From: Candidatus Nitrosocaldus sp. | Lineage (GTDB): Archaea; Thermoproteota; Nitrososphaeria; Nitrososphaerales; Nitrosocaldaceae | Reading direction: 5' to 3' | NCBI GenBank assembly: GCA_025054855.1 | Contig: JANWZS010000005.1 | Span: 1-45,020, forward strand | DNA: 45,020 nt | Shown: piece by piece, positions 7,220 to 45,020 of the stretch | Numbering within the stretch: position 1 is the stretch's first letter | Layout: the number at the start of each line of letters is the position of its first letter | Made by a program: the position numbers and the translations under genes | The notes under the pieces: model-generated | Told to the model about the DNA's origin: nothing | Seen by the model: only the letters and a program-made list of their open reading frames with translations | Database searches by the model: none

Positions 7220-7738
7220 TCAGAACCTCTTCTGCCTCAGCATCCTGTAACCTGTCAGTGCTACGAGTGGTGCAGTTACTGCTGTTATTGCACCTAGTAT
7301 GCTCTCAGGTACTACCATGAACGTTACTGTGAACTCATACATGAATGTCCTGCCGGGCAGTGTATCTACTGCTACTGTCCAATCCCCTACCTTGTTGAAC
7401 CCTGAGGTTAGACCAAAGTCACTCGCCTGTAGGTGCAGGCACTTGTTGGCTCCAGATGGGAGTGTTATGGGCAGCGCTGGTGTACCAACGTAGTTGTAGA
7501 ATACATTGTCAGGGTCTATGAGGTGGAGGCTGGTTATCTGCCTTGTGGTCGATACTATGCATACGTATATGTCGCCCTGCTCGCCAAGCGAGTATGGTGT
7601 GTTCAGTGCTGCTATGCCATCTGCAGTGATTCCTGCTGGTAAAGGCACCAGTGTTGCTGCATATGCCCTCTGTGTGCTCTGTGATGCTATGGCTCCTACC
7701 ACTGCTATCGCCATTACGAGGTATGCAATCTTCTGCAT
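7220..7738 (-). CDS. secreted, C-terminally membrane-anchored protein
   Basis: The protein has 172 residues. It starts with MQKIAYLVMAIAVVGAIAS, a clear signal peptide with a likely cleavage site near AYA-A. A beta-rich extracellular domain of about 110 residues follows, then a C-terminal transmembrane helix and the basic tail RMLRQKRF. Two Cys residues could form a disulfide. The family is not recognised, though the plan is common for thaumarchaeal surface proteins. The ATG at 7738 is preferred to the upstream in-frame start at 7771 because the box at about 7761-7770 lies 26 nt away. Confidence 0.75.
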   Translation of the reverse strand: MQKIAYLVMAIAVVGAIASQSTQRAYAATLVPLPAGITADGIAALNTPYSLGEQGDIYVCIVSTTRQITSLHLIDPDNVFYNYVGTPALPITLPSGANKCLHLQASDFGLTSGFNKVGDWTVAVDTLPGRTFMYEFTVTFMVVPESILGAITAVTAPLVALTGYRMLRQKRF

Positions 7739-7816
7739 TACAATCCTATTCTGTGCAGGAATATTTAACAATGCATGTAATATAAGAGATGTAATGTGTG
7801 TTACATAACGAAGATT

Positions 7817-9308: not shown

Positions 9309-9476
9309 GAATCAGGATGCAGGGAGAGGGTGGCAGGGAGTATTATGCAGTATGAATCGTTGTAACATGATGGGATGAATCGAGAGATATGTATGTGGTG
9401 AGTGAATATCGAATGAGTAGTTGCTGTAACATCCACCCTCATAAACTTTATATCATAACTCACACTCTAATAGTCA

Positions 9477-10136
9477 ATGAGAGTCATAACGGTAGCAATA
9501 GTTACAGCGATGGTACTCCTACTAGCAACTGTTACCATCAAGTCGTATGCCCAGCAATCCCTCTCAACTCCTACCACACAGCCGTTCCAGATACCAGATA
9601 TGAGCGAGGATTTGAAGGTCCTTACCGTAACAGGGAGGGATCTGCAGGGTAATACTGTGAGCATGGAGCTCATAATCAGCAGGGGTACAATGATGATGGC
9701 TAGAGGAAGTATGATGATGGACCCTATGATGATGTTTGGCATGCCCATGATGATGCAGATGATGATGCAGATGCAGATGATGGGCATGGATCAAGGGATG
9801 GGCATGGGTATGGGTATGGGTCAAGCACAGATGCAGCAGATGCAGCAGCAGATGAATGCTTGGATGAGGAGCCATTACATAGTACAGGGCGGTTCAATAG
9901 CAGTAGGTGACAGTACGTACATGATAGAGGTAGGGAATGCAAGGATTAGTGATGATGGCAGGGTGTTTGTCAATGCAGTGGTGGATCAGGGGCTGAACAG
10001 GAATGGCAAGGTAATGGTATGGGGTACACTGGATAAGGATGATGGGCTCAAGGGGAGAGTGCTCCTCTGGGAGGGTAGGACCCAACTGAACAATGTGAAG
10101 TTCACTGCAATTGGTAGTGTAGAGGATGTACTCTGA
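9477..10136 (+). CDS. secreted methionine-rich protein, possible copper binder
   Basis: The protein has 219 residues. An N-terminal signal peptide (residues 1-25, ending SYA-Q) indicates export. Residues 45-70 and 133-215 look like the two parts of a small beta domain. Between them, residues 72-130 contain 28 Met in 59 positions (MMM, MQM and GMGM runs, then Gln-rich repeats). Met-rich motifs bind Cu(I) in extracytoplasmic copper proteins, so a copper or silver sequestration role is a reasonable inference. No Cys or His cluster supports it. The start is leaderless, with a TATA box 26 nt upstream at 9447-9453. Confidence 0.8.
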   Translation: MRVITVAIVTAMVLLLATVTIKSYAQQSLSTPTTQPFQIPDMSEDLKVLTVTGRDLQGNTVSMELIISRGTMMMARGSMMMDPMMMFGMPMMMQMMMQMQMMGMDQGMGMGMGMGQAQMQQMQQQMNAWMRSHYIVQGGSIAVGDSTYMIEVGNARISDDGRVFVNAVVDQGLNRNGKVMVWGTLDKDDGLKGRVLLWEGRTQLNNVKFTAIGSVEDVL

Positions 10137-17152: not shown

Positions 17153-17906
17153 CGAAGAGAAAGGGAGTCGTTAAACTTGGCTATATGCTGGGAAGTACCG
17201 GTGAAGCTGTTCCCTGAGTAAGGGATAGCAACAGCAGAGGTACGATCAGCAGGGAACTATCCCCTATCCTTATAAGTGAAGACTAGTAAGAGATGGTGGA
17301 ACGATGGTGCTCACAGAGTTCAACGATGTTGTAGATGCAGGGATACTGCCAGCGAAGGGGAAGTACCTCCGCTACTACCTACTAGGCATAGTGGATGGCG
17401 AGGGTTCATTCTCCATAAGCATAAAGATGCAGCCAGATACGAGGTTCGGTGTGGTTATAGATCCCCTATTCAAGGTAACACAGCATAAGAGGAATAGAGT
17501 CGTACTAGAACTCCTCAGGAGGACGCTCAACTGTGGCAGAATAGTGGAGAAGAGTGGCCAACCAGATATCCTAGAGTTCGTGGTCGATAACAGGAGGCAT
17601 CTGAGGGAGAAGGTCATACCGTTCTTCAAGAGGTACAAGCCGATAATAAAGAGGGACGAGTTCGCCCTCTTCACTGAGGTGGTAGAGGCACTCGATGCAG
17701 GAGAGCATAGGGATGCGGAGAGCCTGAAGAGGCTGGTAAGAATGCTCTATGAGCATTCAAGTGAGAGGAGGCATACACTGCAGGAGATACTGAGAGAGAT
17801 AGAGGATAGGGAGGGTAGACTCCTCAGAGACCATAAGCCAAGCACCTTGTAGGATTGTAATGAGACAATCCAAAGGTGAAGATATGGTCCAACACGTGAT
17901 GTGTTG
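17153..17906 (+). mobile_element. group I intron in 23S rRNA (site equivalent to E. coli about 1923)
   Basis: The exons rejoin as TAACTCTGACTCT|CTTAAGGTAGCC, restoring the universal sequence. P1: exon GACTCT (17147-17152) pairs with the internal guide GGAGTC (17164-17169), with a U.G pair at the splice site. P10: exon CTT (17907-17909) pairs with AAG (17161-17163). P3: 17176-17182 with 17836-17842. P4: TGCTG (17186-17190) with CAGCA (17247-17251). P5: GTACC (17195-17199) with GGTAC (17239-17243). P7: GACTA (17281-17285) with TGGTC (17885-17889), the latter in the classic AAGATATGGTCC element. P8 hairpin: 17852-17871. P9 hairpin: 17890-17906. The intron ends in G, as group I introns do. Confidence 0.92.
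17304..17852 (+). CDS. LAGLIDADG homing endonuclease encoded in the group I intron
   Basis: The protein has 182 residues. One LAGLIDADG motif (YYLLGIVDGEGSF, with the catalytic acid at Asp31) and a single-domain length fit the homodimeric I-CreI/I-CeuI class. The role would be to cut intronless 23S genes at this site and drive intron homing; it might also assist splicing. The frame begins just after the P7 5' strand, and its last codons (HKPSTL) form the P3 3' strand before running up to P8. ATG 17304 is taken as the start. Expression must come from the rRNA transcript, since I see no separate promoter. Confidence 0.92.
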   Translation: MVLTEFNDVVDAGILPAKGKYLRYYLLGIVDGEGSFSISIKMQPDTRFGVVIDPLFKVTQHKRNRVVLELLRRTLNCGRIVEKSGQPDILEFVVDNRRHLREKVIPFFKRYKPIIKRDEFALFTEVVEALDAGEHRDAESLKRLVRMLYEHSSERRHTLQEILREIEDREGRLLRDHKPSTL

Positions 17907-44583: not shown

Positions 44584-45020
44584 ATGAAGAGGGTAAGGGT
44601 AGTGGTTGATGGTGTAGTGCAGGGTGTGGGCTACAGGTACAACGTCAAGCATGTAGCAGCAAGGTACAAGGTCAAGGGCTACGTTAAGAACCTCGATGAT
44701 GGGAGGGTGGAGATAGTTGCAGAGGGGGACGATGAGCAGATAAGCATGTTCCTCGATGGGATCAACATAAAGAAGGAACCGATACTGGTTGAGAGTATCG
44801 ATGTTACGTATGAGGAGTACAAGGGCGAGTTCAAGACATTCAAGATAGTTGCTGGCTCCCTAGAGGATGAGATGGTCGAGGGGTTCAGTACTGGCGCCAT
44901 GTACTTCAACATAGTTATAAACAAGCAGGATCAGATGCTTGCTAAGCAGGATCAGATGCTTGCTAAGCAGGATCAGATGCTTGCTAAGCAGGATCAGATG
45001 CTTGCTAAGCAGGATCAGAT
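44584..45020 (+). CDS. acyP: acylphosphatase with C-terminal heptad repeats, cut by right edge
   Basis: The gene starts at ATG 44584, with a TATA-like run (about 44550-44561) 26 nt upstream, and is open at the window end. Residues 1-90 form an acylphosphatase domain: VVDGVVQGVGYRYNVK contains the phosphate-binding loop and catalytic Arg, and GYVKNLDDGRVEIVAEG the catalytic Asn. A linker (residues about 91-113) leads to exact KQDQMLA repeats, at least four copies. Acylphosphatases hydrolyse acyl phosphates and are normally about 90-100 residues, so the extension is extra. It may form a coiled coil for oligomerisation. Confidence 0.9.
   Translation, partial: MKRVRVVVDGVVQGVGYRYNVKHVAARYKVKGYVKNLDDGRVEIVAEGDDEQISMFLDGINIKKEPILVESIDVTYEEYKGEFKTFKIVAGSLEDEMVEGFSTGAMYFNIVINKQDQMLAKQDQMLAKQDQMLAKQDQMLAKQDQ
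44923..45020 (+). repeat. 21-nt tandem repeat encoding KQDQMLA heptads
   Basis: Identical 21-nt units occur at 44923-44943, 44944-44964, 44965-44985 and 44986-45006, and a fifth begins at 45007. There are no silent differences, which suggests recent expansion. The array continues beyond the window. Confidence 0.95.

Follow-up and report, generated by a model that had tools for sequence, protein, structure and literature searches.

The DNA analysed here, a stretch of 45,020 nucleotides from a Candidatus Nitrosocaldus genome (hereafter the window), encodes at positions 9477 to 10136 (+) an exported, methionine-rich beta-domain protein of 219 amino acids. The Met core of this protein is its most conserved stretch and is under purifying selection at the protein level, and the gene is restricted to the thermophilic Nitrosocaldaceae among the genomes searched. 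Neither the databases nor the papers searched describe the family. On balance, Met chemistry, export and the lifestyle of the organisms slightly favour an extracytoplasmic Cu(I)-binding protein, acting as a buffer or chaperone.

The gene is preceded by an archaeal TATA-box-like element (AAACTTTATAT, 9443 to 9453 (+)), read from the sequence 24-34 nt 5' of the start codon, a spacing that would imply a short-leader or leaderless transcript. The motif AAACTWTATAT recurs at the same distance to the start in five Nitrosocaldus upstream regions and before the disrupted copy of genome G002, while the Nitrosothermus region differs. As the earlier note had proposed, the protein appears to be secreted: residues 1-26 (9477 to 9554 (+)) form a hydrophobic, putative Sec-type signal peptide ending in SYAQ, of which residues 2-16 are helical in an AlphaFold2 (AF2) model. 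Both the Sec-type call and the cleavage site were judged by eye from the sequence pattern, with SYA-QQ at the end of the N-terminal hydrophobic segment, and S23, Y24, A25 and Q26 are invariant in the six-row alignment; a C-terminal membrane segment is not visible in the sequence. Strands 1 and 2 of the beta domain (residues 46-69, 9612 to 9683 (+)) are followed by the Met core (residues 70-95, 9684 to 9761 (+), GTMMMARGSMMMDPMMMFGMPMMMQM) and by a variable Met/Gly/Gln tail featuring MQM, GMGMG and MQQ (residues 96-130, 9762 to 9866 (+)). The candidate ligands W129 and H133 (9861 to 9875 (+)) lie where the Met block rejoins the predicted barrel; both are invariant in the six-row alignment, and H133 is the sole His of the protein, which is devoid of Cys. 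The six remaining predicted strands occupy residues 133-219 (9873 to 10133 (+)) and carry the motif GGSIxxGDSTYxIxxGNARIS.

A universal stress protein (USP) gene ends 206 nt upstream, and an SNF-type transporter gene lies downstream in convergent orientation, so that the Met-rich gene stands alone; the ORFs overlapping it on the reverse strand are the ATG-rich stretch read in antisense. Elsewhere in the window, another exported protein (7220 to 7771 (-)) belongs to no Pfam family; its C-terminal segment, VPESILGAITAVTAPLVALTGYRMLRQKRF, looks like an archaeal tail for sorting or anchoring. An ORF at 17304 to 17852 (+), which apparently falls in the ribosomal RNA region of the window, looks by eye like a LAGLIDADG homing endonuclease (GIVDGEGSF). 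Two tandem repeats, perfect or nearly so, are located at 846 to 979 (63 bp x 2.1) and 44923 to 45020 (21 bp x 4.7, running past the window end) and may code for repeat proteins.

The count of 28 Met in 59 residues given by the earlier note holds for residues 72-130, the richest 59-residue stretch of the protein, whereas every other frame in the window reaches a maximum of 8-12 Met per 59 residues; the block contains neither His nor Cys. Its spacing is conserved in homologues: the core, with the consensus RGtMMMaRaSMMMDPtMMFGMPMMMQ, is free of indels and invariant at 22/26 positions across two genera, including the non-Met residues R76, S78, D82, P83, F87, G88, P90 and Q94, and in the orthologue alignment its Met residues stay Met and are not swapped for Leu or Ile. 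The variation in length that had been suspected between strains does occur between species, where the block measures 55-66 residues with 22-28 Met; it is confined to the GMG/MQQ tail, which varies in sequence as well and has 11/35 invariant positions.

Since ATG has no synonym, selection was assessed by setting the amino-acid differences in each stretch against the silent differences in its nearby degenerate codons. Pairwise amino-acid difference amounts to 6.8% in the core (residues 70-96) versus 18.6% in the C-domain and 31.9% in the N-terminal strands, and silent codon change is similar throughout (36%, 33% and 38%, respectively). Between Nitrosothermus and each Nitrosocaldus the core is identical at 23/26 positions, and of its shared degenerate codons 40-60% show silent differences. 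Invariant positions are enriched in the core (22/26) relative to the remainder of the beta domain (61/117; Fisher p = 0.0017, calculated from six sequences with positions taken as independent). The fixed spacing of the core speaks for defined sites there, and not for a sponge alone.

These data also bear on a functionless, neutral expansion of an ATG repeat, to which the earlier note had alluded in terming the DNA ATG-rich satellite. The DNA is indeed ATG-rich; a satellite it is not, given that Tandem Repeats Finder reports just one 27-bp repeat in the Met block, a 12-mer in 2.2 copies, and that the core is under protein-level selection. This repeat and the varying tail length are what such an expansion would explain, but the core amino acids are frozen where silent sites change as often as elsewhere. 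Nor did the searches retrieve orthologues that dispensed with the block, the finding that would have pointed to neutrality: orthologues retain the Met core as their most conserved stretch, and only distant superfamily members are devoid of it. Neutral expansion is thus very nearly excluded as an account of the block; we reject it for the core, and it could hold for part of the GMG tail only.

Complete orthologues are present in 5/6 other Nitrosocaldaceae genomes (G001, G003, G004, G005 and G006), i.e., in four other Nitrosocaldus and one Nitrosothermus, and the sixth, G002, has a disrupted copy; the genomes compared include Archaeon HR04, Ca. Nitrosocaldus tengchongensis, Ca. N. schleperae and Ca. 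Nitrosothermus koennekii. Whether or not the Met block was included, profiles retrieved no orthologue outside the family in samples of 300 genomes of the order and 400 of the class. A search for the block itself in 250 genomes of the order yielded the Nitrosocaldaceae alone, plus two weak short-frame matches (G014 and G078), and plasmid records gave no match, though low-complexity filtering may mask one. Within Nitrosocaldus the gene order CBS-USP-Met-SNF-aminotransferase is syntenic. In Nitrosothermus the gene is located elsewhere and is the sole match of seven query genes within 20 kb; since the neighbourhood is not preserved there, it is the gene and not an operon that is conserved. The copy of G002 (L066, 2100-2830, contig C7, CALHIV010000007.1) is flanked by intact CBS, USP, SNF and aminotransferase genes and shows frame changes and TAG/TAA codons inside the Met block; it is either a pseudogene or a local assembly error. 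G002 is also the sole Nitrosocaldaceae genome without a CopC/CopD match. This absence is uninformative, because each of the two conserved flanks of the CopC/D cluster sits at a contig end or no more than 2.5 kb from one (C16:1-6000, L096; C24 end, L099); it may reflect an assembly gap, and co-loss of CopC/D and the Met-rich protein is not claimed. In G001 (L083/L084), the CopC-CopD cluster lies near cytochrome oxidase genes, by eye, and a Nitrosocaldus CopC-CopD fusion at L065:1907-4708 has a Vgb_lyase-like beta-propeller at its C-terminus, together with a YtkA-like segment.

The AF2 model, built from a five-row alignment, predicts eight strands (46-55, 60-69, 133-143, 146-157, 162-170, 176-186, 190-199 and 203-217) together with short helices lined with Met (90-103 and 116-131) beside the barrel. 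Mean pLDDT is 63 and pTM 0.57, with the quality of the five models ranging from 63.4 to 43.7; pLDDT is about 68-89 in the strands, with block means of about 85-89 in the first two, and falls below 50 at residues 71-113. This moderate-confidence model, along with distant relatives devoid of a Met block, indicates that an exported beta-barrel has received an insertion of about 60 residues between its strands 2 and 3, in accordance with the proposal that the block, here placed between strands 46-55/60-69 and 133-217, splits one small beta domain. Foldseek against the PDB returned nothing at E <= 0.001, the best shape matches being designed barrels that agree in shape alone.

A profile from which the Met block had been removed gave weak matches to exported proteins of several other Nitrososphaerales families (L017, L019, L020, L021 and L024-L030), which have GG-I-G---Y-I--G-A in common and carry no Met block; in L019 and L027 the beta domain is followed by a matrixin-type metalloprotease domain. 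Three further weak matches were set aside, as they read like a formyltransferase (G042, L016), read like a permease (G138, L038) or offered no comparable frame (G016, L043). In hhalign, the Met-rich family and the distant set align with a score of 51 versus <=16.4 in 60 column-shuffled controls. Moreover, an HMM built only from the distant set picks up every Nitrosocaldaceae copy searched (E 4e-9 to 2.1e-7; next-best ORF 0.46). Together they probably constitute one Nitrososphaerales beta-domain superfamily, undescribed and defined here; the relation is graded probable, not proven, because the distant set was itself chosen by weak similarity to the Met-rich family. Since distant members are without the Met block, the block would on this reading be a lineage-specific addition on the Nitrosocaldaceae branch.

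From these features we infer metal binding, for which the earlier note had named Cu(I) or Ag(I), as well as Cu(I) specificity and a buffering or chaperone role. The Sec pathway would export the protein to the space outside the cytoplasmic membrane, where the small beta-barrel, a scaffold apparently common to other exported Nitrososphaerales proteins, would bear the inserted Met loop. This loop would most likely bind several Cu(I) ions via thioethers, at defined MMM/MxM sites in the fixed core and with extra, sponge-like capacity in the variable GMG/MQQ tail. In this way the protein may buffer Cu(I) or pass it on outside the membrane, the side on which the ammonia-oxidising copper enzymes are exposed. 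AmoB is encoded in 7/7 Nitrosocaldaceae genomes, so the lineage depends on a copper monooxygenase. In model work, trisMet sites were favourable for Cu(I), individually weak and collectively constituting a statistical 'Cu sponge' (PMC11840665), and CopM is an exported Met-rich protein that binds Cu(I) (PMC4335983). In N. viennensis, CopC has no Met-rich region for Cu(I) (PMC7785015), which would leave room for a separate Cu(I) protein.

Several observations speak against the Cu(I) reading. No copper gene is adjacent, the neighbours being CBS, universal stress protein, SNF-family transporter and aminotransferase-like genes, and this neighbourhood is not kept in Nitrosothermus. Other ammonia-oxidising archaea are also copper-dependent, and those in the order and class samples lack the Met-rich protein. 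In G002 the copy is disrupted while amoB is kept; therefore the gene may be dispensable. Against a pure sponge, fixed positions including D82-P83, F87-G88 and P90 exceed what a sponge would need.

Three further explanations would account for an exported Met cluster without Cu(I). Surface Met could serve as a sink for reactive oxygen or nitrogen species, with recycling by methionine sulfoxide reductase, and hypochlorite-scavenging exported Met-rich peptides of this kind are known, namely MrpX/BcrX with MsrPQ (PMC8315932). The known recycling partner MsrP (PF00174), however, was found in 0/7 Nitrosocaldaceae genomes while control genomes were positive, and no reductase is encoded among the neighbours. 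Such a sink would, moreover, require composition and not spacing, whereas the core is indel-free with invariant non-Met residues, which renders this explanation unlikely. The Met side chains might instead act as bristles that hold peptides or lipids, as in the M domain of SRP54, making the protein an envelope chaperone or a lipid-binding barrel. The predicted Met-lined helices, as well as weak, non-significant Foldseek matches to LolA and lipocalin-like barrels, are compatible with a hydrophobic client. This role seems improbable, too, considering that Foldseek matches with E <= 0.001 number zero, that the core is broken by Pro and Gly, and that no SRP-type or other Pfam match was obtained.

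The protein might also be structural, associated with the surface layer or adhesive, with Met packing that supplies thermostable, flexible hydrophobic contacts and with no ligand bound; this would suit both the limitation to a thermophilic family and the presence of the scaffold in other exported proteins of unknown function. Leu, Ile and Val are nevertheless the normal residues for such packing, Met is oxidisable outside the cell, and the core Met residues are not exchanged for Leu or Ile; such a role is accordingly quite improbable.

An extension of the Cu(I) reading, which we regard as rather doubtful, concerns a new Cu(I)-storage or delivery family with a Met-only cluster in a barrel, which could feed ammonia monooxygenase or a terminal oxidase in thermophiles. 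It would be a Met-based counterpart of the Cys-based Csp acquired by the ancestor of mesophilic Nitrososphaerales; a Cys-rich Csp storage protein has been reported for Nitrososphaerales (PMC7554672). For the copper route to archaeal ammonia monooxygenase, CopC/D, multicopper oxidases and ZIP permeases have been proposed (PMC7785015). The frozen Met cluster in an exported protein of a thermophilic family constitutes a concrete, purifiable candidate for copper handling, and it exemplifies a way in which a pre-existing exported barrel could acquire a metal site, namely through an inserted loop.

Regarding known families, the Pfam scan at E <= 1 gave just a sub-threshold STAT2_C match, searches of NCBIfam and PDB sequences assigned no family, a PDB profile search made a non-significant contact with a multicopper oxidase (6ttd, E 8.7), and no mention of a Met-rich protein in Nitrosocaldus or Nitrososphaera was found in the open-access literature. 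The copper storage protein Csp is a Cys-rich four-helix bundle, whereas the Met-rich protein has no Cys and is predicted to consist of beta strands. CusF binds Cu(I) through a Met2HisTrp site and resembles the Met-rich protein as a small exported beta-barrel in which an invariant Trp and His adjoin Met. W129 and H133 beside the Met block may thus recall the CusF site by analogy, as a lead only, AF2 pLDDT being below 50 at residues 71-113 of the adjoining block; unlike CusF, the Met-rich protein has more strands and its Met cluster is a long insertion, and Pfam and NCBIfam gave no match to the CusF family domain. With CopC and the CopC-CopD fusion of Nitrososphaerales it shares an extracytoplasmic location and proposed copper handling; the CopC domain (PF04234) is not matched at E <= 1 in the Pfam scan, and the same genome has a true CopC/D fusion at another locus. 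The scavenger peptides MrpX/BcrX are likewise exported and Met-rich, but differ in their MXKDX-type repeats, which the Met-rich protein lacks, and in the MsrP partner family, which is missing. CopM of Synechocystis (DUF305; PMC4335983) is comparably small and exported and has a similar number of Met; in contrast, the Met-rich protein, with one His and no Pfam match, has neither DUF305 nor the HH motif, is predicted to form a beta-barrel and is not located beside copRS. At 219 residues, with one His, no Cys and no Pfam match, it also lacks the cupredoxin domains with T1/T2/T3 ligands of multicopper oxidases, and its block, unlike the Met-rich domains of the CueO type (PMC11840665), is His-free with a fixed core; what it has in common with these domains is dense Met in a flexible exported segment, with proposed multi-site Cu(I) binding.
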